DNA from: Streptomyces hygroscopicus | Lineage (GTDB): Bacteria; Actinomycetota; Actinomycetes; Streptomycetales; Streptomycetaceae | Direction of reading: 5' to 3' | Length of the DNA: 64,000 nt | NCBI GenBank assembly: GCA_002021875.1 | Contig: CP018627.1 | Span: 1,302,001-1,366,000 of the forward strand | In this document: in pieces, positions 38,801-52,992 of the stretch | How the letters are laid out: each line of letters starts with the position of its first letter | How positions within the stretch are numbered: position 1 is the stretch's first letter | Notes under the pieces: generated by a model | The model's database searches: none | The model's input: the letters and a program-made list of their open reading frames with translations, nothing else | What the model was told of the DNA's origin: nothing | Translations under genes and position numbers: made by a program

Positions 38801-40905
38801 TTGACCGCCGCCACGCAGATCCGAGCGCTGTCGTCCGCTGCCGCGCCCGTCATGAGCGTCCGGGTGACCTCGTCCTCGCTCGCTTCGAGCAGGACCATGG
38901 CGCCCGGTTCCGTCACGGCCTGCATCAGCCGGCCGCGGGCGGCGACGAAGGCGGCGGCGTCCGCCAGCGACAGCACACCGGCGACATGGGCGGCGCTCAC
39001 TTCGCCGAGGGAGTGGCCGATCAGCACGTCCGGTACGAGCCCGAAGTCCTCGAGCAGCCGGAAGAGCGCCACCTCCACCGCGAAGAGTCCGGCCTGGGCG
39101 TACACCGTCTGATCGAGCAGCTCGGCGTCGTCGCCGTGGATGACGTCCCGAAGGGGCCGGTCCAGGTGTGCGTCCAGCGCCGTGCACACGATGTCGAGAG
39201 CGTCGGCGAACACGGGGAAGACGGCACTGAGTTCGCGTCCCATGCCGAGACGCTGGGATCCCTGGCCGGCGAAGGCGAAGGCGAGCCTTCCCGTCCTCGC
39301 CGTGCCGGTCACCAGGCGGGGTGCCGTGCCGCCTTCGGCGAGGGTGTCCAGGCCGGGTGCCGCGTCGGTGGCCGCCCCGGCGATGAGCACCGCGCGGTGT
39401 TCGAAGGTGGTTCGGGTGGTGGCGAGGGAGAAGGCGAGGTCGGTGAGGTTCGGCGACCGCTCCACATACGGCCGTAGCCGCATCGCCTGGCCCCGGAGCC
39501 CGGCCGCGGTCGTCGCCGACAGCGCGAGCGGGACCGGGATGGAGACAGGGAGCGGAGCCGGGGCCGGGGCCGGGAGGGCCCCGGGCTCCGGGTGTGCGGA
39601 GGCGTGGGAGGGGACCTGGGCGGGTGGTTCCGCAAGCACCACATGGCAGTTGGTGCCGCCCATCCCGAACGAGCTGACGCCGGCGACCAGGCGCTTGTCC
39701 GCCTTCGGCCACTCCCCCGGTGCCAGGCGCATTTCCAGGTTGAGCTCGCCCAGGGGGATGCGGGGATTCGGCGTGCGGTGATGGAGACTGGCCGGTAGCT
39801 GACGGTGGTGGATGGCCAGTGCCGTCTTCAGCAGTCCGGCGATACCGGCGGCGGCTTCAAGGTGGCCGATGTTGGTCTTCACCGAACCAAGCTGCACCGG
39901 CCCCGTGCCGGTCCGGCCGAAGACGGCACCCAGGGCCGCCGCCTCGGCCGGGTCGCCGAGCGCCGTTCCGGTGCCGTGCAGCTCCACGTACTGCACGGAG
40001 CCGGGTGAGACCGCGGCCCGCCGCTGGGCCAGCCGGAGGACCTCTTGCTGACCGCGGGAGTCGGGGGCGGTGAGCGACGTACCGCCGCCGTCGTTGTTGA
40101 CCGCGCTGCCCTCGATCACGCAGTAGACGGTGTCGCCGTCGGCGAGGGCGTCGGACAGCGGTTTCAGGACGACGATTCCACCGCCCTCGCCCCGCACATA
40201 GCCATTGGCGCGGGCGTCGAAGGTGAAGCAGCGGCCGTCCGGGGAGAGCGCGCCGAACGCGGCGATATCGGCGGCGGTTTCCGCGGAGAGGTTCAGGTTC
40301 ACTCCGCCCGCCAGCGCGAGCCTCGACTCGCCGCGCCGCAGGCTCTCCACGGCCATATGCACCGCGACCAGGGAGGACGCCTGGGCCGCGTCGACGGTCA
40401 CGCTGGGACCGCTCAGGCCGAGCACATGGGAGAGCCGGTTCGCGATCATGGCGCGCTGGGTGCCGGTCAGCGTGTGGTGCGAGCGGCCGCGGGCGCTGAT
40501 CAGCGAGGCGTAGTCGGCGGACCCGGCGCCGATGAACGCGCCGACGGTGGCTCCCCGCAGAGTGGCCGGCACGATGCCCGCGTCCTCCAGCCCTTCCCAT
40601 CCCAGCTCCAGTATCAGCCGCTGCTGGGGGTCCATCGTCACGGCCTCGCGTGGCGAGATGCCGAAGAACGCGGGGTCGAAACGGTCGACGTCGTCGATGA
40701 AGCCGCCATGGCGGATGGCGGGCGGCATGGACGGGTCGTCGGCCCACCGCCCGGCGGGCACCTCGCCGATCGCCGAGACGCCCTCGCTCAGCAGCCGCCA
40801 GAACGCCTCGGGGTCGGGTGCCTGCGGAAAGCGGCAGGACATTCCGACAACGGCGATGGCCTCGTCCGGTTCCATGCTGTTCCTCGGGGCGGGATCGTCG
40901 TTCAC
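23821..40905 (-). CDS. Modular type I PKS with KSQ loading module and extension modules 1-3, 5694 aa
   Basis: First PKS of the operon. The GTG at 40905 overlaps the NRPS stop as GTGA and has GAGGT eight bases upstream; I prefer it over an upstream in-frame start at 40929 inside the NRPS gene. Loading module: a KS whose active-site Cys is replaced by Gln (residue 175, codon 40381-40383, context DAAQASS), a malonyl-type AT (GHSLGE, HAFH) and an ACP with GFDSI. Such KSQ domains decarboxylate malonyl-ACP to give an acetyl starter. Then module 1 KS-AT-KR-ACP (about 1025-2468), module 2 KS-AT-DH-KR-ACP (2494-4152), module 3 KS-AT-KR-ACP (4168-5615), and an acidic C-terminal docking tail (5618-5694). 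Loading-to-module-3 chemistry predicts a CH3-CH(OH)-CH(CH3)-CH=C(CH3)-CH(OH)- start, which fits a meridamycin-type side chain (from memory). Confidence 0.97.
24055..28400 (-). other. PKS module 3: KS-AT(malonyl)-KR-ACP
   Basis: KS about 28400-27110; AT about 26830-25960 with GHSIGE and HAFH, hence malonyl-CoA. A short FWDAVE-type linker replaces a DH. KR about 25070-24530 has LDD (B-type) with Ser, Tyr and Asn present; ACP GFDSL near 24175. Predicted unit is an unbranched beta-hydroxyl, a plausible lactone oxygen. The AT is nearly identical to the module-8 AT apart from an internal patch. Confidence 0.9.
28440..33425 (-). other. PKS module 2: KS-AT(methylmalonyl)-DH-KR-ACP
   Basis: KS about 33425-32150; AT about 31870-31000 with YASH; DH about 30810-30210 with [10 protein letters not shown] and [12 protein letters not shown] about 29510-28965 with VDD (B-type); ACP GFDSL near 28575. 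Predicted unit is a methyl-branched alkene. KR and half of the DH are in the duplicated block shared with module 4. Confidence 0.9.
29020..30700 (-). repeat. Long near-identical block, copy B (DH N-half and KR of module 2)
   Basis: Partner of the block at 19200-20880. The two flanks of each copy differ, and a patch inside (about 29990-30340) is diverged. This pattern argues against a simple assembly collapse and for recombination or gene conversion between the two PKS genes. Confidence 0.9.
33485..37835 (-). other. PKS module 1: KS-AT(methylmalonyl)-KR(A-type)-ACP
   Basis: KS about 37815-36540; AT about 36230-35390 with YASH; KR about 34540-33990; ACP GFDSL near 33625. The KR lacks the LDD motif (it reads LAGTVRFGG) and has Trp in AAVWGGAGQ, the marks of an A-type ketoreductase giving an L-configured hydroxyl. 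It is the only A-type KR visible in the cluster. Predicted unit is a methyl-branched beta-hydroxyl on the acetyl starter. Confidence 0.88.
35520..36235 (-). repeat. Homogenised methylmalonyl AT segment (one of five copies)
   Basis: This AT core, including GHSQGE and YASH, recurs at about 5560-6240, 11630-12310, 16440-16985 and 31170-31870 with long runs of nearly identical bases. The KS and linker sequences around each copy are less alike. Confidence 0.85.
37860..40872 (-). other. PKS loading module: KSQ-AT(malonyl)-ACP
   Basis: KSQ about 40860-39620 with Gln for Cys at 40381-40383 while both catalytic histidine motifs ([15 protein letters not shown]) remain, as expected for a decarboxylase. 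AT about 39290-38390 with GHSLGEVS and HAFH. ACP about 38100-37870 with GFDSI. The AT-ACP linker contains an 18-bp tandem repeat. Predicted starter is acetyl from malonyl-CoA. Confidence 0.93.
38125..38214 (-). repeat. 18-bp tandem repeat, five units, in the loading AT-ACP linker
   Basis: Units begin at 38125, 38143, 38161, 38179 and 38197. The top-strand unit is CTCAGGCCCGGAGGTGTC with drift to the right. It encodes a Gly-Pro-Glu-Asp-Thr-Ser type hexapeptide repeat, so it keeps the frame. Confidence 0.9.
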
Positions 40906-43900
40906 TGATCGCGACCTCGGACCTGCCACACCTGCGAGACCGACCGACCGGGGTCCCCGGCGGCTGTGGAGACCACCGCCACCACGTCGTCGCAGAACCG
41001 CTCGATGGTGGCGCGGTCGAAGAGGGACGTGCTGAACAGCACGGTGCCGGCGAGGCCGCCGTCCTCCGCGTTCTCGTACAGGTCGATCTCCATGTCCACG
41101 TTGACGGTCACCGGTGGGTGGGTCATCAGGAACGGCTCGGCGGTAAGCCCGGTGAGCATGAGGGGCCGCTGTGGGGTGTTGACGATCTGGAAGATCACCT
41201 TTACCGGCGGATCGTCCGACAGCCGTGTCCCGGCGTGGCCGCCGGTGGGTTCGTCCGAGTGCTTGAGATCCGAGCGCTTGAGAACCGAGTGCTTGAGAAC
41301 GGAGACGAACGGCACGTCCTGGTGGGTAAAGGCGTCCGACATCGCATCGCGCACCGTGGCCAGCAGTGTGCCGAAGTCCGTGGCGCCGGAGACCTCGGTG
41401 CGCAGCGCCAGCATCTTGGAGACGAGGCCCACCACGTTCTCCAGTTCGTCCCGGCCACGGTTGGCCATGGGCACGCCGACGAGGACGTCCTGGTTGTCCG
41501 AGCGGGCGGACATGACCACCTTCAGCGCGGTCAGCAGCGTCATGTACAAGGTGGCGCTGGACGATTCGCCCAGTCGCCGGGCCGCCTCCACGGCGTCCTT
41601 CGGCAGTCGCCAGTGGTAGATGCCGCTCTCGTATCGGGCCGACGTGGCGCGGGGCCGGTCAGTGGGCAGTTCGGCGGGTGTCATTCCATCGAAGTGCCGC
41701 TGCCAGTAGTCGAGTTGGCGTCGCAGCAGATCCCCGCGCAACCACTCGCGCTCCCAGTTCGCGACATCGGCGTACTGGACGGGCACGGGCGGCAGATCGG
41801 GTTCGGCGCCGCGCAGCAGGGCCGAGTACACGAGGGACAGATCGCGGACCAGCACACCTTGGGACCAGCCGTCGGTGACCAGATGGTGCAGGGTGAGCAC
41901 CAGCACATGGTCGAGCTCGGCCAGGCGCAGCACGCGCAGCCTCGCCAGTGGGCCGCTCGTGAGGTCGAAGGGCCGTGCCGCCTCCTGTCCGGCCAGTACG
42001 GAGGCTTCGGCCTCGTCGTCCGCCTCGGCCACCTCCACCTGGACCGGCACATTCGGCCGGATCACCTGGACGTATCCGTCGGCTTCCCTGACGAAGGTGG
42101 TGCGCAGGGCCTCGTGCCGGTCGATCAGCAGGGCCATCGCCCGCCGCAGGCAGTCGAGGTCCAGTTCGCCCGAGACCCGCACGGCCATGGGGATGTTCCA
42201 GTGCCCGGCGTCGAGGACATCGCCGAAGAAGAGGTCCGTCTGCTGCTGTGCGAAGGTGAGGGGTACGGGCTGATCGCGCCGCGTGGGGACCAGCGGCGGC
42301 AGCTCGGGCCCGGGAACGGACCGGGCGGCGGCGCTGAGGGTGGCCGCCAGCTCCCTGGGGGTGCGTTGCTGGAAAACGGTCTTCAGCGGTACGTCGACGC
42401 CAAGGGCGGTCCGGAGCCTGGCGACCACCCTGGTGGCGATGAGGGAATGGCCGCCCAGTGCGAAGAAGTCGTCGTCGATACCGACCCTGGTGGCGCCGAG
42501 CAGATCCGCGTAGACCCGGCAGACGGCCTCTTCCCCGGGGGTGCGGGGGGCGACGTAGCCGACCTCCAGCACGGTGCGCAGGTCGGGGGCGGGCAGCGCC
42601 TTCCGGTCGATCTTGCCGCCGGAGGTCAGGGGCATGGTGTCCAGCAGGACGAAAGCGGAGGGCACCATGTATTCGGGCACCGCGGACTCGACGTGCCGGC
42701 GCAGGGTTTCGGTCAGCCGGTCGTGCCGGTCCGCGGCGGTGGCATCGGCCACCACATAGGCCACCAGCCGCTTGTCCCCCGGGGTGTCCTCACGCACCAT
42801 CACGGCCGTGTGCAGCACATCCTGGTGCCTGGCGAGGATCGCCTCGATCTCGCCCGGTTCGATCCGGAAGCCACGGATCTTCACCTGGTCGTCGATCCGG
42901 CCGAGGTATTCCAGGTTGCCGTCGGGCAGCCAGCGCACCAGGTCGCCGGAGCGGTACATCCGCGATCCATCGCCGTGGAACGGGTTCGCCACGAACCGGG
43001 AGGCGGTCAGATCCGGACGGCCGAGATAGCCTCTGGCCAGGCCCGCTCCGGCCACGCACAGCTCACCGGGCACCCCCACGGGGACGGGCCGGAGCCGCCG
43101 GTCGACGACGTACACCCGGGTGTTGCCGATCGGGCGGCCGATGGGGGCGGTGAGCGGCCACTCGGCCACCTCGGCGGGGAGCGAGTAGGAGGTCACCACA
43201 TGGGCTTCGCTGGGACCGTAGTGGTTGTGCAGCCGCAGCTCGGGGCGGCGGGCACACAGCTCGCGCAGATCGTGGTGGAGGGAGAGGGGTTCACCGGCCT
43301 GTGAGAGATGGCGCAGCGCGGCCAGCTCGGTGCCGTGCGGATCCACTTCCTCGGAGATCGCCCGCAGCATCACATTCGGTACGAAGAGCTGGTCGATCTC
43401 GTGGGCGTGGATCCATCGGGCGAACTCGACGGGGTCCATGCGCAGTTCCTCGCCGGGGATGACGATCGTCTCGCCGTACAGCAGCGCCGAGAAGATCTCC
43501 TGGAGCGAGATGTCGAAGGTCAGCGTGGCGAATTGGGCCGTCTTTGCGTCGGGGCCGATCGGCAGGGCCTTCTTCTGCCAGGCCACCAGGTTGAGCACAC
43601 AGGAGGCGGGCATGAGGATGCCCTTGGGGACTCCGGTGGAGCCGGAGGTGTAGATGACATAGGCGAGGTTCTGGGCGCTGGGCCGTGCCGTGGGCGGGGT
43701 CCGGGGCCGGCTGGTGAGCGATTCGCGCTCGGCGTCGAGCAGGATGAGCCGGACCCCGGCCGTCCCGGATGGCTCACTCTCCCCGGATGTCTCAAGTGCC
43801 CCGGCTGTCCCGGGTGTCTCCGGCCCTTCGGTGATCCGCGATGTCCCGGCGGGCTCCTCCGCTTCGGAGGGTTTTTCGAGCAGGCTGCTGAAGCGCTGCT

Positions 43901-45701
43901 GGGTGACGGCGACGGTCACCCCGGCGTCGGCCAGTACGAACTGGATACGGTCCCGGGGGTGGTTCGGGTCGATCGGCACATAGGCCGCTCCGAGCTTGAG
44001 GATCGCGAGAATCGCCACGATCATCTCGGCGCCGCGGTCGACACACAGCCCGACCAGGGTCTCGGGGCCGATCCCCCGGCTCTCCAGGAGGTGGGCGAGC
44101 TGGTTCGAGCGCTGGTCCAGCTCGGCGTAGGTGATGCGGTCGGCGCCGCTGATCACGGCCACCGCGCCGGGGCGGCGTTCGGCCTGGGCGGTGAAGAGCG
44201 CGGGCAGCGATCCGGCCGGTACGGGGCCCGTGGTGTGGTTGAACTCCTCCAGGACCTTCGCCCGCTCGGCGTCGTCGAGCGGGGAGATCTCGGAGAGGGG
44301 CCGGTCCGGCTCGGCCAGAACACCTCGCAGGACGACGGTGACATGGTGCAGCAGCCGTTCGACGGTGCTCCTGTCGAACAGGGCCTTGCTGAAGACGATA
44401 TGACCGAGCACTCCGTCCTCGGCCTCGACGAGATGGACCTCCAGGTCCATCCGCGTGAGGATCCGGCCGTGGTCGTAGGGCTCGGTCTCCGCGCCGGGCA
44501 GGGCGAGCCGCTCCCCCGGCACGTTGATCATCTGGAAGAGCACCTGTACCAGCGGGTTCCGGGACAGGTCCCGCTCGGGGTGCACCTGCTCCACCAGATA
44601 CTCGAAGGGCAGGTCGCCATGGGCGAAGGCACCGGCCGCCATGTCCCGGACCCGTGCCAGCAGTTGGCGGAAGGTGGGGTCGCCGGACAGGTCGGTCCGC
44701 AGCACCACGGTATTGACGAAGAACCCGATGAGGCCCTCGACCTCGGCGCGCCCCCGGTTGGCCACGGGGGTGCCCACCGTGATGTCGTCGCTGTCCACAT
44801 ACCGGCCCAGGACCAGTTGGAAGGCGGCCAGCAAGGTCATGTAGAGGGTCGCGTTCTCACCGGCGCCCAGCCGGCGGGCGGCCTGGATCAGTTCGGCGGG
44901 CAGCTCCCAGCGCACCGCGTCGCCTTCCTGGCGGGCGACCGAGGGCCGGGGCCGGTCGGTGGGCAGCTCCAGCGCGGGGGCCATACCGTCGAGCCGCTTC
45001 GTCCAGTAGTCCAACTGGCGGCGCAGGGTCGGACCGGACAGCCAGTCGCGCTCCCACTCCGCGTAGTCGGCGTACTGCACGGGCAGCGGCGGCAGTACGG
45101 GCTCCCGCCCGGCGTCGAACGCCTCGTACGCGGCGGACAGCTCACCCACCAGAATGCCCTGTGACCAGGCGTCCGTGGCCACATGGTGCACCGTCAGCAG
45201 CAGGACGTGGTCGTGGTCGTCCAGCCGCAGCACCTTGGCCCGCAGCAAGGGGCCGGTGCTCAGGTCGAAGGGCTCGGTGATCTCCGCTCCGGCCAGCCGC
45301 CGGACCGCGGCGAGCCGCTCCTCCTCCGGGCCTTCGGGCACCGATTCGATCCGCACCGGAACGGGGGCGGGGGGCTGGATCGACTGCACCGGTTGTCCGC
45401 CGGTCTCGGTGAAGGTGGTGCGCAGCGCCTCGTGCCGGGCGGCCACCAGCGAAAGGGCCCGGGAGAGATGGGCGACGTCCAGGCGGCCGCGCACCCGCAC
45501 CGCGAAGGGGAGGTTGTACGAGGCGTTGCCGGGCTCCAACTGGTCCAGAAACCACAGTCGTCGCTGGGCGAATGACGCCCTCAGCTCCCGGTCCCTGGCG
45601 ACCGGCACCACACCCGTGGATTCCTTTCGCCTGGTGCGCTCGAAGAGATTGCTCATGGCCGCGCTGAGACCTTGGGATTTGGGCGCGCCTGATTGCCCCA
45701 C
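40902..45701 (-). CDS. NRPS, C-A-PCP-C, imino-acid (proline/pipecolate) type, RapP/FkbP-like, 1599 aa
   Basis: Activates one amino acid and probably couples it to the polyketide chain. Domains: condensation (about residues 25-450, HHVATDAW near 172), adenylation (about 495-1010, with [11 protein letters not shown] and [11 protein letters not shown]), carrier protein (GGHSL, Ser near 1085), second condensation (about 1120-1590, HHLVTDGW). My reading of the pocket residues is D-I-Q-F-S-A-H-V-V-K, close to the DVQxxAHVVK code of proline domains, so proline or pipecolate is likely. C-A-PCP-C at about 1.5-1.6 kb residues is the architecture of RapP and FkbP, whose terminal C domain closes the macrocycle. 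Start is GTG at 45701 with GGGGAAGG seven bases before it. The stop overlaps the next PKS (GTGA). The A domain carries a low-complexity insert between A2 and A3 (about 43740-43870). Confidence 0.93.
41255..41299 (-). repeat. 15-bp tandem repeat, three units, in the second C domain of the NRPS
   Basis: Units start at 41255, 41270 and 41285 (top strand CCGAGTGCTTGAGAT and variants). They encode the pentapeptide pattern [15 protein letters not shown], a charged insertion in the condensation domain. Confidence 0.9.
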
Positions 45702-46424: not shown

Positions 46425-47354
46425 TCACCACGCCCATTTCGGCGTCCAGGCACCGGCGTCGCGGTGGCCGGGCGGCGCGGCGGCGAGGTGGTCGCGGAGC
46501 GCGGTGAGGGCGGGGTGCGGGTTGTCGCGGTGCCAGATCAGCGAATGCGGGTAGACCGGGGTCGGGTGGTGCACCTCGATGCGCCGCAGCCCGTAGTCGG
46601 CGGGCCAGACCAGGCGGGTCCGTTCGCCGACGAAGGTCGCCAGCGTCGAGGAGTCGGCGATCGTGTCGAGGAGCGGCTCGGGCCCGAAGTACGGGCCGAT
46701 CGCGTCGATGGTGATCCCGAACGCGGCGGCGAGGTCGTCGTAGTAGGCGGCCCATTCGGTACCGGGGACGATGCCCGGCATCCAGATCCGGTGCCCGGCG
46801 AGCTCGGCGGGGGTGACCTCGCGGGCGGCGGCGAGCTCATGGGACGGTCCGGTGAGGAGCTGGATGGGCTCGTCGTGGACCCGGGTGGCCTCGATGCCGC
46901 CGGGGAGCCGCCGGGCGGGCACGGTGACCGCCCGGAACGACGCGTCGATCGTGCCGGTGCGCACGGCGGCGATGGCCGCGTCGGCGTCGAAGAGCGTCAC
47001 CACATCGAGTTCGACCCCGGGGTGCGCCCGGTGGAAGCCGCGGAGCAGATCGGCCGGTGCGAGCCGCCGCCCGATCACATCGACGCGCAGCGCGCGGCGG
47101 CCGGGGCGTACGGAGGCGGCGGCCCGTTCCTCGGCCCGCAGAAGTTCGCGGGCGTGGGGCAGGAACGCCTGCCCGTCGATGGTGAGCAGGGCTCCGCGCG
47201 CGGTACGGGTGAACAGCCGCACGCCGAGTTCCTTCTCCAGCGCGGCGATGCGCTTGGAGACGGCCTGCTGGGTGATGGACAGATCGCCGGCCGCCTCCTG
47301 GAACTGGCCCGCGTCCGCGACGGCGACGAAGGTGCGCACGGCCTTGAGGTCCAC
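46425..47354 (-). CDS. LysR-family transcriptional regulator, 309 aa
   Basis: DNA-binding regulator with the LysR layout: N-terminal winged helix-turn-helix (about residues 1-60, with SITQQAVSKRIAALEKELG and LFTRTARG) and a C-terminal substrate-binding domain of the periplasmic-protein fold, about 85-295. Length is typical. I place the start at the GTG at 47354 because the homologous sequence begins there (VDLKAVRTFV) and AAGGTGG sits just upstream; the open frame itself extends much further but is antisense to other genes. It diverges from the MFS transporter at 47493, with a perfect inverted repeat between them, so it most likely controls that transporter and itself. The effector is unknown. 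Whether it belongs to the PKS cluster or only flanks it cannot be told. Confidence 0.93.
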   Translation of the reverse strand: MDLKAVRTFVAVADAGQFQEAAGDLSITQQAVSKRIAALEKELGVRLFTRTARGALLTIDGQAFLPHARELLRAEERAAASVRPGRRALRVDVIGRRLAPADLLRGFHRAHPGVELDVVTLFDADAAIAAVRTGTIDASFRAVTVPARRLPGGIEATRVHDEPIQLLTGPSHELAAAREVTPAELAGHRIWMPGIVPGTEWAAYYDDLAAAFGITIDAIGPYFGPEPLLDTIADSSTLATFVGERTRLVWPADYGLRRIEVHHPTPVYPHSLIWHRDNPHPALTALRDHLAAAPPGHRDAGAWTPKWAW

Positions 47355-47371
47355 GTCGGCCACCTTAGTCG

Positions 47372-47388
47372 CACAACGTCTGGTTGTG
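47372..47388. promoter_or_regulatory. Inverted repeat, candidate LysR operator
   Basis: CACAAC-GTCTG-GTTGTG: perfect 6-bp arms with a 5-bp spacer, in the 138-bp divergent gap between the LysR and MFS starts, 18 bp from the LysR start codon. The position fits autoregulation. Confidence 0.55.
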
Positions 47389-47492
47389 GCATGTCGAGGG
47401 CGTTGTTTGAACCGCCCGCCCAGGCTCGCTTGGATATCGCCCGTTCTATGTGAGGTTCTTCGGGCGGGACGGCGAGGAGGGGTGCGCTGCAC

Positions 47493-48743
47493 ATGGGGGC
47501 GAGGCGGAAGCTGGGGCGGCAGTTCGGATGGCTCTGGGGGGCGTACGCGGTCAGCGCGTTCGGCACCTGGCTCGCGTTCGACGCGTTCCCGATGATCGCG
47601 ATCATTGTTCTCCATGCCGGGGCGGCCCAGGTGTCGCTGCTGGCGGCCGCGGGGCTCGCGGTGGGCGCGGCGGTGGCGCTGCCGCTCGGGCCATGGATGG
47701 AGTTCCGCCGCAAGCGGCCGGTGATGATCGCGATGGATGTGGTCCGGTTCGCGGCCCTGATGACCGTCCCCGTCCTGTTTCTGCTCGGCCGGCTCACCTT
47801 CGCCCAGCTCGTGGTCGTGTCGATCGTCGTCTCCGCGGCCGACATCGCCTTCACCGCGGCCAGTGGGGCGTGCCTGAAGGCGCTGGTGCCGCGGGAGGAC
47901 CTGCTGGTGGCGAACGCGCGGTTCGAGTCCACGGCCTGGACCGCCACCATGCTCGGACCGCAGATCGGCGGGGCCGCGATCGGGCTCTTCGGTCCGGTGA
48001 TGACCGTGGCGGCCAATGCGGTCAGCTTTCTGCTCTCGGCGGCGGGGATCCGTGCGATCGGCGGCACGGAGCCACGCCCCGCGCGCACCGGCCCGCCGCC
48101 ACGGCTCCGGGCCGGTGAGCTGCTGGAGGGCTGGCGGTGCATTCTGACCAACCCGGCGCTGCGTCCGCTGTTCTTCAACCAGGTCCTGGTGGGCGGGCTG
48201 ATCATGGCGACCGCGCCGCTGCTCGCCGTCCTCATGCTGGGCAGCCTGGGGTTCGCGCCCTGGCAGTACGCCATGGCCTTCACACTGCCCTGCATCGGCG
48301 GTCTGATCGGCTCCCGGCTGGCTCCCCGGCTGGCGGAACGGTTCGGGCGGCACCGGGTCATGCTGATCTCGGGGGCGCTGCGGGCGTGCTGGTTGCCGGG
48401 GTTGGCCTTCGTCCGCCCGGGTACGGCGGGACTGGTGCTGGTCATGGCGGTCGAGCTGGGGCTGATCTGCTGCATGGGCGTGTTCACCCCGCTGTACGCC
48501 ACCTATCGGCTCGACCGGACCCCGGCGGACCGGGTCGCCCGCACCCTCTCCGCGTGGTCGGTCTCCAGCAAGGCCACCGTCGCGACCCTGACCGCCCTGT
48601 GGGGCCTGCTGGCCGCTGTCACCGGCCCCCGGATCGCGATCGCCACAGCCGGACTCCTCAGCCTGGCGACCCCGCTCCTCCTCCCCCGGCACGAGCACGG
48701 CGCGCCCCGTCCTGAGCAGGAACCGGTGCCGAGCCACACCTGA
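47493..48743 (+). CDS. MFS transporter, putative drug/small-molecule exporter, 416 aa
   Basis: Integral membrane protein with about 12 hydrophobic segments, beginning with WGAYAVSAFGTWLAFDAFPM. The MFS signature loop between helices 2 and 3 is present in degenerate form (GPWMEFRRKRPVM), and a second such loop (SRLAPRLAERFGRHRVM) follows the midpoint. Length and layout fit the proton-driven efflux branch of the superfamily. ATG start at 47493 with GAGGAGGGG about ten bases upstream. The divergent LysR neighbour suggests inducible expression. Its substrate cannot be read from sequence; export of the adjacent cluster's product is possible but unproven. Confidence 0.92.
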   Translation: MGARRKLGRQFGWLWGAYAVSAFGTWLAFDAFPMIAIIVLHAGAAQVSLLAAAGLAVGAAVALPLGPWMEFRRKRPVMIAMDVVRFAALMTVPVLFLLGRLTFAQLVVVSIVVSAADIAFTAASGACLKALVPREDLLVANARFESTAWTATMLGPQIGGAAIGLFGPVMTVAANAVSFLLSAAGIRAIGGTEPRPARTGPPPRLRAGELLEGWRCILTNPALRPLFFNQVLVGGLIMATAPLLAVLMLGSLGFAPWQYAMAFTLPCIGGLIGSRLAPRLAERFGRHRVMLISGALRACWLPGLAFVRPGTAGLVLVMAVELGLICCMGVFTPLYATYRLDRTPADRVARTLSAWSVSSKATVATLTALWGLLAAVTGPRIAIATAGLLSLATPLLLPRHEHGAPRPEQEPVPSHT

Positions 48744-48778
48744 TCCGCGGGCTGGGCGAGTGTTCGGACTCAACGTTC

Positions 48779-48843
48779 TGAACGCCCGTCCTGAACGATC
48801 GTTCTGAACGATCGTTCTGAACGCCCGTTCTGAACGATCGTTC
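48779..48843. promoter_or_regulatory. Five tandem 13-bp palindromic repeats, candidate TetR operator array
   Basis: Units at 48779, 48792, 48805, 48818 and 48831. Three read TGAACGATCGTTC, which holds the perfect 12-bp palindrome GAACGATCGTTC; the other two are TGAACGCCCGTCC and TGAACGCCCGTTC. The array abuts without gaps and ends 23 bp before the TetR start codon. Most TetR regulators have one or two operator palindromes, so five is unusual. Confidence 0.85.
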
Positions 48844-48866
48844 AAGGTTGGGGTAGGGTGGTCGGC

Positions 48867-49448
48867 ATGGGACATCGGGAACAGTTGATGGCCGGGGCGA
48901 AGCGGTGCCTGGAGGAGCGGGGATTCGCCCGTACGACCTCGCGTGACATCGCCGCCGCCGCCAACGCGCCGCTCGGCACGATCAATTACCACTACGGCTC
49001 GAAGGAGCAACTGCTCAACGCGGCGCTCCTGGAATCGCTCGACGAGTGGAGCGAGAAGGTGCGGTCCGGGTCGACGGAGGCCGCCCCGGACTCCGATGCC
49101 GGAACGCGAGCGGAGTCGATGTGGGCCCGGATCATCGAGTCCGGGACCACGGACCGGCCGCTGGTGGTGGCCGGCGTGGAAGCCCTCGCCCAGGCCGAAC
49201 GTTCCGCCGACGTCCGGCAGCAGCTCGCCGAGGCGTTCGAACGGGCCCGTACGGCGCTGGCGGCCGATCTGCACGGCATCGAGGGCACGGAGGAGGGCGA
49301 GGTGGCCCGTGCGGTCGGGTCGGTGCACATGGCCCTGGTCGCCGGGCTGACCCAGCAGTGGCTGGTCGATCCCGAGCGCGCCCCCTCGGCGCGGGAGGTG
49401 GCCACGGGTCTGCGGAGGATCGCCCAGGCCCTCGAGTCCGACGCCTGA
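48867..49448 (+). CDS. TetR-family transcriptional regulator, 193 aa
   Basis: Repressor with an N-terminal helix-turn-helix (about residues 8-52: GFARTTSRDIAAAANAPLG then INYHYGSKEQLL, the hallmark of the family) and an alpha-helical ligand-binding C-terminal domain containing a run typical of TetR_C, including the MALVAGLTQQWLVDP helix. ATG at 48867 is preferred over the in-frame GTG at 48858 because AGGGTGG lies five bases before it. The gene sits between the operator-like array and a dnaE-type gene whose start is only 13 bp after the TetR stop, so the two are almost certainly one transcript. Autorepression through the array would make the polymerase gene inducible. The ligand is unknown. 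Confidence 0.94.
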   Translation: MGHREQLMAGAKRCLEERGFARTTSRDIAAAANAPLGTINYHYGSKEQLLNAALLESLDEWSEKVRSGSTEAAPDSDAGTRAESMWARIIESGTTDRPLVVAGVEALAQAERSADVRQQLAEAFERARTALAADLHGIEGTEEGEVARAVGSVHMALVAGLTQQWLVDPERAPSAREVATGLRRIAQALESDA

Positions 49449-49461
49449 TCCGGGGAAAGGA

Positions 49462-52400
49462 GTGGCACCGCCTTTCACCCATCTGCATGTGCACACGCAG
49501 TACTCGCTCCTGGACGGCGCGGCCCGGCTGAAGGATCTCTTCGCGGCCTGCCAGGAGATGGGCATGTCGCACCTCGCCCTGACGGACCACGGCAATCTGC
49601 ACGGCGCGTACGACTTCTTCCAGCAGGCCATGGCCTCGGGCGTGACGCCGATCATCGGGATCGAGGCGTATGTCGCCCCGGAGTCGCGGCGCACCAAGCG
49701 CAAGATCCAGTGGGGGCAGCCCCACCAGAAGCGCGATGACGTCTCCGGCTCGGGCGGCTACACCCACAAGACGATCTGGGCGGCGGACACCACCGGGCTG
49801 CACCATCTGTTCCGGCTGTCGTCGGACGCGTATGCGCACGGCTGGCTGCAGAAGTGGCCGCGGATGGACAAGGAGGTCATCGCCGAGCACGCCGAGGGGC
49901 TGATCGCGTCGACCGGCTGCCCGTCCGGTGAGCTGCAGACCCGGCTGCGCCTGGGCCAGTTCGACGAGGCGCTGAAGGCCGCCTCCGAGTACCAGGACAT
50001 CTTCGGCAAGGACCGGTACTTCCTGGAGTTGATGGACCACGGCATCGAGATCGAGCGCCGGGTCCGGGACGGGCTGCTGGAGATCGGCAAGAAGCTGGAC
50101 ATCCCGCCGCTGGTGACGAACGACTCGCACTACACCTACGCGGACGAGGCCGCGGCACACGATGCGCTGCTGTGCATCCAGACCGGCAAGAGCCTCTCCG
50201 ACCTGGACCGCTTCCGCTTCGACGGCACCGGCTACTACCTCAAATCCGCCGCCGAGATGTACGCCGTCGACTCCTCGGACGCCTGGCAGGAGGGCTGCCG
50301 CAACACCCTGCTGGTCGCCGAGCAGATCGACACCACCGGCATGTTCGACAAGCGCGACCTCATGCCGCGGTTCGAGGTGCCCGAGGGCCACACCGAGGTC
50401 ACGTGGTTCCGCGAGGAGGTCCGGCGCGGGATGGCCCGGCGCTATCCGGGTGGCGTACCGCAGGACCGCCAGAAGCTGGCCGAGTACGAGATGGACATCA
50501 TCATCCAGATGGGGTTCCCGGGCTACTTCCTCGTGGTCGCCGACTTCATCATGTGGGCCAAGCAGCAGGGCATCGCCGTCGGGCCGGGCCGTGGCTCGGC
50601 GGCCGGTTCGATCGTCTCGTACGCCATGGGCATCACCGACCTCGACCCGGTCGAGCACGGGCTGATCTTCGAGCGGTTCCTCAACCCCGAGCGCGTGTCC
50701 ATGCCGGACGTCGACATCGACTTCGACGAGCGCCGGCGGGTCGAGGTGATCCGCTATGTGACGGAGAAGTACGGCGCCGACAAGGTCGCCATGATCGGCA
50801 CCTACGGCACCATCAAGGCCAAGAACGCCATCAAGGACTCCGCCCGGGTGCTGGGCTATCCGTACGCGATGGGCGACCGCATCACCAAGGCCATGCCCGC
50901 CGACGTCGGCGGCAAGGGCATCCCGCTGTCCGGCATCACCGACCCGGAACACCCGCGGTACTCCGAGGCGGGCGAGGTGCGGGCGATGTATGAGAACGAG
51001 CCGGATGCGCGGAAGGTCATCGACACCGCCAAGGGTGTCGAGGGCCTGGTGCGGCAGATGGGTGTGCACGCCGCCGGCGTGATCATGTCGAGCGAGCCGA
51101 TCGTGGACCATGTCCCGGTCTGGGTGCGGCACACCGACGGCGTCACGATCACGCAGTGGGACTACCCCACCTGTGAGTCGCTGGGCCTGCTGAAGATGGA
51201 CTTCCTGGGCCTGCGCAACCTCACCATCATGGACGACGCCGTCAAGATGGTGCGCGCCAACAAGGGCATCGACCTGAAGCTGCTCGATCTGCCACTGGAC
51301 GACCGCAGGACCTTCGAGATGCTCGGCGGTGGCCACACCCTCGGCGTGTTCCAGTTCGACGGCAGCGCGATGCGCTCGCTCCTGCGGCTGATGAAACCCA
51401 ACCAGTTCGAGGACATCACCGCCGTCACCGCCCTGTACCGGCCCGGCCCGATGGGCATGAACTCGCATATCAACTACGCGCTGCGGAAGAACGGCCAGCA
51501 GGAGATCACCCCGATCCACCCGGAGCTGGCGGAGCCGCTCCGGGAGGTCCTCGACATCACCTACGGCCTGGTCGTCTACCAGGAGCAGGTGCAGAAGGCC
51601 GCCCAGGCCCTCGCGGGCTACTCACTCGGCCAGGCCGACCTGCTGCGCCGGGCGATGGGCAAGAAGAAGCAGGAGGTCCTGGACAAGGAGTTCATCCCGT
51701 TCCGGGACGGCTGCCGGGAGCGCGGCTACTCCGACGAGGCCGTGCGGGCGGTCTGGGACGTACTGGTGCCCTTCGCGGGCTACGCCTACAACAAGGCGCA
51801 TGCGGCCGCCTACGCGCTCGTCTCGTACTGGACCGCGTATCTCAAGGCCAACTACCCCGCCGAGTACATGGCGGCGCTGCTCACCTCGGTGCGTGACGAC
51901 AAGGACAAGTCGGCGGTCTATCTGAACGAGTGCCGTCGTATGGGCATCAAGGTGCTGCCGCCGAACGTCAATGAGTCCGAGGCCAACTTCACCGCTCAGG
52001 GTGATGATGTGATCCTCTTCGGTCTCACGGCGGTCCGGAACGTCGGTCAGAACGTGGTGGAAGCGATCATCCGTGGCCGTAAGGCCAAGGGGAAGTACGC
52101 CTCGTTCCCGGACTACCTGGACAAGGTCGAGGCGGTCGTGTGCAACAAGCGCACCACGGAATCGCTGATCAAGGCGGGCGCGTTCGACGAGATGGGCCAC
52201 ACCCGTAAGGGGCTCACGGCGCACTACGAGGCGCTGATCGACAATGTGGTCGCGGTCAAGCGCAAGGAGGCCGAGGGGCAGTTCGACCTCTTCGGCGGCA
52301 TGGCCGGTGACGGCGGGGACGGCGAAGGGCCGGGCTTCGGCCTCGACGTCGAGTTCTCGGACATCGAATGGGACAAGCCGTATCTGCTCGCCCAGGAGCG

Positions 52401-52992
52401 GGAGATGCTCGGTCTCTACGTCTCCGACCACCCGCTCCTCGGTCTGGAACGGTTGCTGGCCGGCACGGCGGACGCCACCGTCGCGCAGCTCACCGGCGGT
52501 GACTTCGCGGACGGCGCGGTCGTCACGGTCGGCGGGATCATCTCCGGTCTGCAGCGCAAGATGACCAAACAGGGCAACGCCTGGGCCATCGCCACCGTGG
52601 AGGACCTGGCCGGCTCCATCGAGTGCATGTTCTTCCCGGCCACCTACCAGCTCGTGTCGGCCCAACTCGTCGAGGACACGGTGGTGTTCGTCAAGGGCCG
52701 TCTCGACAGACGCGAGGACGTGCCCCGGCTGGTGGCGATGGAACTGGCGGTCCCCGACCTGAGCGCCCGCCATGCCCCGCTGCGCCTGGAGATGCTCGAA
52801 GCGCGGGTGACGCCGCGCTCCGTCCAGCAGCTCAAGGAGATCCTCCAGGCCCACCCGGGACCGACCGAGGTACATCTGCTGGTGCGTGGCCGGGCCAGGA
52901 CCACGGTCTACCGGCTGGGCTACCGTATCGGCATCCGGCCCGAGTTCTGGGCGGATCTCAAAGCGGCGGTGGCCGTCACCCGGGCGACATGA
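49462..52992 (+). CDS. dnaE: DNA polymerase III alpha subunit, DnaE1-type paralogue, 1176 aa
   Basis: Full-length C-family polymerase. The N-terminal PHP domain keeps all metal-site motifs (HLHVH, LTDHGN, IGIEAY, YTHKTIW, STGCPSGE, TNDSHY), so 3'-5' proofreading activity is plausible. The palm has GPGRGSAAGS and the catalytic aspartates in PDVDIDFDERRR. A clamp-binding-like QFDLFGG lies near residue 934, and an OB fold follows (VTVGGIISGLQRKMTKQG). These are features of replicative DnaE1 more than of error-prone DnaE2. Start GTG at 49462 has GGGGAAAGGA unusually close, and translation probably couples to TetR. Compared with the housekeeping Streptomyces DnaE as I remember it, this copy differs at otherwise fixed places (FDGSAMRSL for FDGGPMRSL, and an unrelated C-terminal 40 residues). 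It is therefore probably a second, regulated copy. The context differs from the usual dnaE locus. Confidence 0.95.
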   Translation: MAPPFTHLHVHTQYSLLDGAARLKDLFAACQEMGMSHLALTDHGNLHGAYDFFQQAMASGVTPIIGIEAYVAPESRRTKRKIQWGQPHQKRDDVSGSGGYTHKTIWAADTTGLHHLFRLSSDAYAHGWLQKWPRMDKEVIAEHAEGLIASTGCPSGELQTRLRLGQFDEALKAASEYQDIFGKDRYFLELMDHGIEIERRVRDGLLEIGKKLDIPPLVTNDSHYTYADEAAAHDALLCIQTGKSLSDLDRFRFDGTGYYLKSAAEMYAVDSSDAWQEGCRNTLLVAEQIDTTGMFDKRDLMPRFEVPEGHTEVTWFREEVRRGMARRYPGGVPQDRQKLAEYEMDIIIQMGFPGYFLVVADFIMWAKQQGIAVGPGRGSAAGSIVSYAMGITDLDPVEHGLIFERFLNPERVSMPDVDIDFDERRRVEVIRYVTEKYGADKVAMIGTYGTIKAKNAIKDSARVLGYPYAMGDRITKAMPADVGGKGIPLSGITDPEHPRYSEAGEVRAMYENEPDARKVIDTAKGVEGLVRQMGVHAAGVIMSSEPIVDHVPVWVRHTDGVTITQWDYPTCESLGLLKMDFLGLRNLTIMDDAVKMVRANKGIDLKLLDLPLDDRRTFEMLGGGHTLGVFQFDGSAMRSLLRLMKPNQFEDITAVTALYRPGPMGMNSHINYALRKNGQQEITPIHPELAEPLREVLDITYGLVVYQEQVQKAAQALAGYSLGQADLLRRAMGKKKQEVLDKEFIPFRDGCRERGYSDEAVRAVWDVLVPFAGYAYNKAHAAAYALVSYWTAYLKANYPAEYMAALLTSVRDDKDKSAVYLNECRRMGIKVLPPNVNESEANFTAQGDDVILFGLTAVRNVGQNVVEAIIRGRKAKGKYASFPDYLDKVEAVVCNKRTTESLIKAGAFDEMGHTRKGLTAHYEALIDNVVAVKRKEAEGQFDLFGGMAGDGGDGEGPGFGLDVEFSDIEWDKPYLLAQEREMLGLYVSDHPLLGLERLLAGTADATVAQLTGGDFADGAVVTVGGIISGLQRKMTKQGNAWAIATVEDLAGSIECMFFPATYQLVSAQLVEDTVVFVKGRLDRREDVPRLVAMELAVPDLSARHAPLRLEMLEARVTPRSVQQLKEILQAHPGPTEVHLLVRGRARTTVYRLGYRIGIRPEFWADLKAAVAVTRAT

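Follow-up and report, generated by a model that had tools for sequence, protein, structure and literature searches.

Why would a bacterium place a complete, replicative-type DNA polymerase directly behind the gene of a putatively ligand-sensing repressor? The question is raised by a stretch of 64,000 nucleotides (hereafter, the window) at 1.302-1.366 Mb of the 12.0-Mb, single-contig genome of Streptomyces hygroscopicus, in which a tandem palindromic array, a TetR-family gene (tetR) and a dnaE gene follow one another on the forward strand. An earlier note on this DNA had suggested that the arrangement might supply an alternative polymerase under a specific chemical stress and, judged by sequence comparison, this is still the best reading. 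More precisely, we consider it reasonably probable that the locus constitutes a stand-alone, mobile, ligand-inducible and inhibitor-insensitive replacement replicase, that is, an instance of target substitution.

The array, the repressor gene and the polymerase gene

The array consists of five abutting 13-bp units of the form GAACGNNCGTTC(T/A), which occupy positions 48780..48844 of the forward strand and lead into the tetR promoter. The units (GAACGNNCGTTCT) start at 48780, 48793, 48806, 48819 and 48832, and were recognized by repeat and palindrome searches, by their register in relatives and by their restriction to the cassette in genome scans. Tandem Repeats Finder reports 48774-48843 with a period of 13, 5.4 copies and a score of 98. 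Over 12 bp, three of the units are perfect palindromes, one has 10 of its 12 positions paired and the first has eight. A window-wide search for the palindrome pattern, allowing at most one mismatch, found seven matches against 2.68 expected, a number reached by one of 100 shuffles; five of the seven make up the array. The last unit ends 22 bp 5' of the tetR ATG (48867) and would overlap the -35/spacer region of the tetR promoter. The putative -10 element, TAGGGT (48854..48859, forward strand), has similar counterparts, TA(G/C)G(G/C)T, in most relatives and, because it lies only 7 nt before the ATG, the tetR mRNA is probably leaderless. The tetR gene (48867..49448, forward strand) encodes a one-component repressor of 193 amino acids with Pfam domains TetR_N and TetR_C_6. 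Exactly 13 bp beyond it, the accessory dnaE gene (49462..52992, forward strand) begins with GTG and encodes a complete, DnaE1-type DNA polymerase III alpha subunit of 1176 amino acids, identified by curated models and conserved residues; since the gap is so short, the two genes are presumably co-transcribed. The array, the spacing of the genes and the completeness of the polymerase thus all stand as the earlier note had given them.

That note had also placed successive sites on different helix faces. At 10.5 bp per turn, a pitch of 13 bp indeed amounts to 86 degrees per unit and the statement is numerically correct. However, adjoining half-sites form near-dyads (CGTTC-T-GAACG), paired at 10 of 11 positions in three of the four junctions, and the units therefore need not be bound independently. 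The idea that a five-fold array provides graded repression is not supported in that form; relatives have between one and five units and five are thus not essential.

The TetR protein joins a helix-turn-helix domain (TetR_N) to an all-helical ligand domain, as is usual in its family. Its predicted fold has a predicted local distance difference test score (pLDDT) of 88.8, and SCO7518 and the multidrug-binding EbrR are among the best matches.

The polymerase scores 1461.9 bits against NF004226, the NCBIfam model of the replicative alpha subunit (cut-off 1002), over residues 3-1172, and 581.4 bits against NF004225, the error-prone model, below the cut-off of 939. On these scores its identity as DnaE2 was rejected. 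The catalytic Asp416/418 are present in all 15 DnaE proteins from cassettes of this kind and the PHP ligands in each of the 14 rows, out of 15, that extend over these positions; 13 of 15, the window protein included, have the QFDLF clamp motif. The PHP ligand positions, and the role in clamp binding that we take this motif to have, were mapped by alignment. A separate DnaE1, 85% identical, is encoded at 4.396-4.399 Mb of the same genome and belongs to the Streptomyces housekeeping clade in the tree described below. We take it as the housekeeping subunit and the window gene, therefore, as the spare one. A third gene of the C family, at 4.04 Mb, is DnaE2-like and its product 30% identical.

Recurrence of the cassette and specificity of its operator

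Other genomes were searched for the tetR-dnaE pair and the array, and both recur in several actinomycete genera, the hosts being Streptomyces, Jiangella, Rhizohabitans, Allonocardiopsis and Actinomadura. When species genomes were scanned with the TetR protein, 37 loci emerged; 20 of them matched only remotely, in the DNA-binding part, and were not carried further. Among the 17 retained, dnaE adjoins tetR in 13: it is complete in ten (L040, L042, L044, L045, L046, L048, L049, L051, L053 and L054) and truncated at the end of a contig in three (L039, L047 and L043, the last with only residues 4-11, eight residues, before the end). Two loci hold a dnaE remnant (L041, residues 2-152; L052, residues 1088-1174), the TetR of L041 itself being matched only from residue 8. 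In one, from Streptomyces sp. MP131-18, dnaE lies elsewhere in the genome (L050 and L099), and in one (L055), which has the most distant TetR, only 40% identical, there is no dnaE. The gene order is reversed, dnaE preceding tetR, in L046 and L048. TetR orthologues scoring above 310 bits occur in six of 392 sampled Streptomyces genomes and in five of 394 sampled genomes of the class, a count that includes the genome of the window; the next-best TetR proteins score 212 bits or less. In the open-licence full-text literature, as judged by title and the start of the abstract, no paper describing a TetR-dnaE cassette was found, which is a weak negative.

In the relatives, the unit TGAACGNNCGTTC repeats at 13-bp steps, one to five times, and its register relative to the gene is nearly fixed. 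Of 25 promoter rows (two of which repeat others), 22 have the last unit starting 35-37 bp 5' of the ATG, the exceptions being L050, L053 and the tetR promoter of L046. Positions within the unit are almost invariant, T1 being found in 57 of 58 units and G2 in all 58. Where dnaE comes first (L046, L048) or stands alone (L099), the array precedes dnaE. In L046 and L099, where dnaE has its own operator, the encoded protein begins MGH as TetR does, as though a copy of the tetR promoter and start had been placed before the polymerase gene.

The array is also specific to the cassette. A 27-bp, two-unit pattern, allowed up to three mismatches, was run against 15 genomes with the cassette, each in full (about 141 Mb in total; G150/G199, G203, G210, G211 and G213 were outside the scan), a pattern that single-unit sites would escape. 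It was found in 14 of the 15 genomes, every match lying, by coordinates, at the promoter of a tetR or dnaE gene of the cassette; a reversed control pattern gave no matches across the same 15. The only scanned genome without the two-unit operator is that of S. endocoffeicus, whose dnaE is broken. Streptomyces sp. MP131-18 has the operator at tetR (1.13 Mb) as well as at the unlinked dnaE (3.99 Mb), about 2.9 Mb away. At 48 fetched loci of paralogous TetR genes, flanks of up to 1.5 kb held no dnaE and the best two-unit match on either strand had at least six mismatches. Orthologous loci examined likewise gave zero or one mismatch in eight of nine, the ninth (L158) having a single unit at tetR and the array at dnaE.

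A palindromic operator over its own promoter is characteristic of a TetR-family repressor, and sequence comparison assigns the array to this role. Given its recurrence at nearly fixed register in other genera and before an unlinked dnaE in one strain, the array is very probably the operator of the window TetR, in keeping with the earlier note. Strong comparative evidence further suggests that repression by TetR extends to its own gene and dnaE and hardly beyond. Actinomadura rudentiformis (L053:9900-14096) adds a case in which both partners have changed: its TetR is only 52% identical and a different tandem palindrome, AACCA..TGGTT, occupies the same place, as would be expected if the diverged TetR is the binder. 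This TetR-dnaE pair offers a natural test of co-variation between repressor and operator.

The same observations bear on whether the units might instead be LexA boxes that put dnaE into the SOS response in the manner of dnaE2, which we regard as most improbable. The unit core, GAAC-N4-GTTC, does resemble actinobacterial SOS boxes, and dnaE2 of S. venezuelae is controlled by LexA. The boxes that the excerpted report (PMC9380542) gives for recA, lexA and dnaE2 begin with TCG, however, whereas T and never C stands directly before GAAC in 57 of 58 units. The protein, moreover, is DnaE1 and not DnaE2, and the diverged repressor of A. rudentiformis comes with its own palindrome. On the strength of the unit flanks and this second operator, SOS control was disfavoured.

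Transfer, selection and the nucleotide pocket

In a tree of 30 DnaE proteins, 15 of them from cassettes, 14 of the 15 form one clade (support 100/99) beside the clade of Streptomyces housekeeping proteins. The Jiangella, Allonocardiopsis and Actinomadura hosts possess DnaE1 proteins of their own that are only 61-66% identical to the window protein, and a single cassette clade in such hosts therefore indicates horizontal transfer between genera. When the window was compared with 14 loci, none of the gene families in the vicinity was common to more than two loci, and a fixed cassette neighbourhood was accordingly rejected. Such sharing between two loci as exists concerns mainly the Jiangella pair, the window and S. 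samsunensis, and a few single genes; sampled neighbours in other genera are genes of unrelated kinds. The ratio of non-synonymous to synonymous substitution rates (dN/dS) of the cassette dnaE is 0.16 for close pairs and 0.22 for a more distant pair, values which imply purifying selection, if somewhat relaxed.

These features help to weigh a reading without any antibiotic, in which the spare DnaE1 would be a conditional replicase or repair polymerase for stress, development or nutrient supply and TetR would sense an endogenous metabolite. TetR repressors often do sense metabolites, no ligand is known and the differences in the active site are mild. Yet the cassette is rare and patchy, as the orthologue counts given above attest, it has moved between families and its dnaE is broken in three loci (L010, L041 and L052). 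Rarity, breakage and transfer suit an accessory resistance trait better than core physiology, and we hold the conditional replicase to be rather unlikely.

Five class-specific substitutions, P636A, S653T, I704V, S781A and G785A (codons within 51367..51816, forward strand), are seen in the alignment around Q631, R660 and H780. T653, V704, A781 and A785 occur in all 15 cassette proteins and A636 in 14; in 26 rows classed as housekeeping, the same positions hold Ser (25) or Val (1), Ile (26), Ser (18), Thr (6) or Ala (2), Gly (26), and Pro (20), Gly (5) or Ala (1), respectively. All five are present in the outlying A. rudentiformis protein. In Mycobacterium tuberculosis DnaE1, the excerpted structural report (PMC8922275) has nargenicin touching Q638, R667 and H787 and displacing the template base against P668; by alignment, these correspond to Q631, R660, H780 and P661 of the window protein, all unchanged. 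H780 is also the equivalent of the Escherichia coli steric gate, H760 (PMC8485763, in excerpt). Four of the five substitutions lie at most eight residues from a nargenicin contact, I704V being farther away. The Staphylococcus aureus nargenicin-resistance position, S765, corresponds to M. tuberculosis 860 (PMC8922275, in excerpt); in the alignment, read by eye, its equivalent is Gly in both proteins and lends no support. Taken together, the active-site substitutions hint at insensitivity to an inhibitor and are suggestive only.

Other duplicated dnaE1 genes provide a comparison. At least two DnaE1-like genes are found in 17 of the 394 sampled class genomes, and 14 rows from the 12 of these that remain when the five TetR-cassette genomes are set aside were classed as other duplicates, the division into housekeeping gene and duplicate being made by score (both rows of genome G297 were classed as duplicates). 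These rows mostly do not have the substitution set: T653 occurs in none of the 14 and A785 in one. That one (L203, the same gene as L214:123-3701), an independent duplicate, has A636, V704, A781 and A785 as in the TetR cassettes, and the gene upstream of dnaE in L214 appears by eye to encode a helix-turn-helix regulator. Large Streptomyces plasmids, including CP109208 and CP109185, encode DnaE proteins about 56% identical to that of the window over 98% of its length.

We propose, on this comparative footing, that TetR would bind the tandem operator over the -35/spacer region of its own promoter and keep the tetR-dnaE operon silent. A small-molecule inhibitor of the housekeeping DnaE1, or a chemical signature of it, would release TetR, the inhibitor most likely being a nargenicin-type natural product that occupies the nucleotide/template pocket. 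The spare DnaE1, with its catalytic, PHP-exonuclease and clamp-binding parts intact and its pocket altered, could then take over DNA synthesis at the fork and thereby confer resistance by target substitution.

Several observations pull the other way. The three hydrogen-bonding residues for nargenicin are unchanged in the cassette protein. Enrichment of class-specific sites near the contacts is of moderate significance only (uncorrected hypergeometric P between 0.0009 and 0.053 among conserved columns, varying with the cut-off and with the span of residues used), and another group of class-specific sites falls in the C-terminal tail. The substitutions are mild; residue 785 is also Ala in E. coli and Ser in Thermus, and such residues are thus compatible with normal replication. 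The dN/dS of the cassette gene exceeds that of a housekeeping pair (0.096). The A. rudentiformis protein sits on a long branch outside the clade, so that the tree does not support a single origin of all 15. No producer or ligand is known for the cassette hosts. Finally, in Rhizohabitans arisaemae (G206), the search revealed no ordinary housekeeping dnaE1 in addition to the cassette gene, and 'spare' is unproven there. Its cassette protein (L046) is 77% identical to that of the window and a second DnaE, encoded about 25 kb away (L250, C33:80000-90000), 57% identical; the latter is 78% identical to L200, another duplicate type, and a DnaE2-like gene is also present. Either the available sequence lacks the housekeeping dnaE1 or the cassette gene is more than a standby in this host.

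A spare DnaE could also act as a decoy that soaks up the inhibitor rather than as a working substitute, the role proposed for NarR/NgnU, the dnaE homologue that adjoins the nargenicin cluster in Nocardia sp. CS682 (PMC8922275, in excerpt). To this we give little credence. The catalytic Asp and PHP residues are kept wherever covered, QFDLF is kept in 13 of 15 and the gene is under purifying selection; in the excerpted report (PMC8922275), furthermore, nargenicin needs DNA to bind and overexpression of DnaE1 did not protect.

Neighbouring genes, wider meaning and known systems

Upstream of the cassette, domain scans and gene calls reveal large modular polyketide synthase (PKS) genes at 2461-40929, of which the first (2461-23763) lay outside the domain scan, and a non-ribosomal peptide synthetase (NRPS) gene at 40902-45701. 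Within 2461-45701, several rows of tandem repeats reappear at a distance of about 9.8 kb, which gives the impression of nearly duplicated modules. The spare dnaE might, as has been proposed of NarR/NgnU for nargenicin, be the self-resistance gene of this cluster, which lies beyond a LysR gene, and the same NRPS indeed adjoins the cassette in S. niphimycinicus and in genome G055. In G055, though, the NRPS (95%) and PKS (94%, first 1500 residues compared) are kept while dnaE has lost residues 41-768 and its frame. S. samsunensis, conversely, keeps LysR-MFS-tetR-dnaE-lacI at the same place with no NRPS in the 10 kb upstream, and the sampled neighbours in other genera are unrelated genes. A DnaE for self-resistance would be kept with one biosynthetic cluster; here, cluster and dnaE dissociate both ways, for which reason this explanation was rejected as the principal one and is distinctly unlikely. 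The replacement replicase free of any cluster remains our preferred reading, and a regulated, mobile DnaE1 cassette of this type would be a form of resistance by target duplication, this function being the point on which we are least certain.

Between the cluster and the array lies a divergent pair. A LysR regulator of a common family (46425..47363, reverse strand), whose members elsewhere lie divergent to a major facilitator superfamily (MFS) gene and in fewer cases to a spare dnaE, is separated by a promoter region (47364..47492) from an MFS exporter of 416 amino acids (47493..48743, forward strand; Pfam MFS_1/MFS_3), which its gene pairing marks as a possible efflux arm. The promoter region contains ACAACG..GGTTGT and GTTGTTTGA elements that resemble, by eye, those in the gaps of LysR-dnaE pairs. 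A second type of spare dnaE, with products 53-59% identical to that of the window, is oriented divergently from a LysR gene, and the sequence between the two contains similar palindromic elements (L212:7002-11680, L215:7046-11655, L216:6564-11158, L217:6372-11329 and L239:1501-3933). The window LysR is 76% identical to that of L217 and 41-44% identical to three others. The gaps of LysR-dnaE (L217, L239) and LysR-MFS pairs share, by eye, GGTTGTTTGA and a stretch like GCTTTGATG, and the window-type LysR family with similar promoter elements precedes a spare dnaE in genomes G566 and G019. By comparison, then, one LysR family seems to control an exporter in some loci and a spare polymerase in others, as would fit a single kind of inducer. 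The family is present in 135 of 199 Streptomyces genomes. Among the 30 best-scoring LysR loci fetched, 24 are beside an MFS gene (three of these being the window locus in close relatives), one is beside a spare dnaE and five are beside neither. Because the family is so common, the LysR-MFS pair may be in the window by chance, and its abundance in Streptomyces weakens LysR as proof of a joint module.

A wider reading, which we advance only tentatively and would not yet back over its opposite, is that actinomycetes have in common a transferable, general-purpose defence against poisons of the replicase, built of pocket-remodelled spare DnaE1 proteins that were recruited at least twice by unrelated sensors (TetR and LysR), the window holding both arms. 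Were this correct, LysR would recruit dnaE by way of a promoter that in other loci serves an MFS exporter, the LysR-MFS pair so widespread in Streptomyces would be the efflux arm, side by side in the window with the polymerase arm, and soil inhibitors of DnaE1 would be common and mostly undiscovered, with TetR as a ready biosensor for them.

On-demand exchange of the replicase would be an unusual form of drug resistance, in that an essential, multi-protein machine acquires a second catalytic subunit that can be induced. Few natural inhibitors of the antibiotic target DnaE1 are known; a conserved cassette of sensor and altered target would imply that soil contains them often enough for selection to favour such a cassette. 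The cassette may give a handle on inhibitor discovery, through TetR as a biosensor and through cassette-guided choice of strains, and it predicts a route of resistance ahead of any DnaE drug in use.

Among known systems, drug-sensing repressors of the EbrR/TtgR type resemble the window TetR in fold, profile similarity and palindromic operator. The known repressors of that kind control efflux pumps, whereas the window TetR is predicted to govern a replicative-type polymerase through a tandem array. DnaE2/ImuC, as in the Streptomyces dnaE2-dinP pair (PMC9380542, PMC12926913, both in excerpt), is likewise a second polymerase of the C family and inducible, as the window dnaE would be, but is LexA-controlled and of the translesion type, the window gene being a DnaE1 with intact PHP residues. 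GriR, the product of an extra dnaN in the griselimycin cluster, shares the principle of a duplicated replisome target as self-resistance; it is a beta clamp and not a polymerase and, in the excerpted account, resides inside the biosynthetic cluster (PMC6022970). The closest known system is NarR/NgnU, also an extra actinomycete DnaE with a proposed protective role against a DnaE inhibitor (PMC8922275, in excerpt). Compared by description, it lies beside its producer's cluster, while the window dnaE belongs to a TetR cassette with its own operator, carried by several genera and tied to no single cluster.

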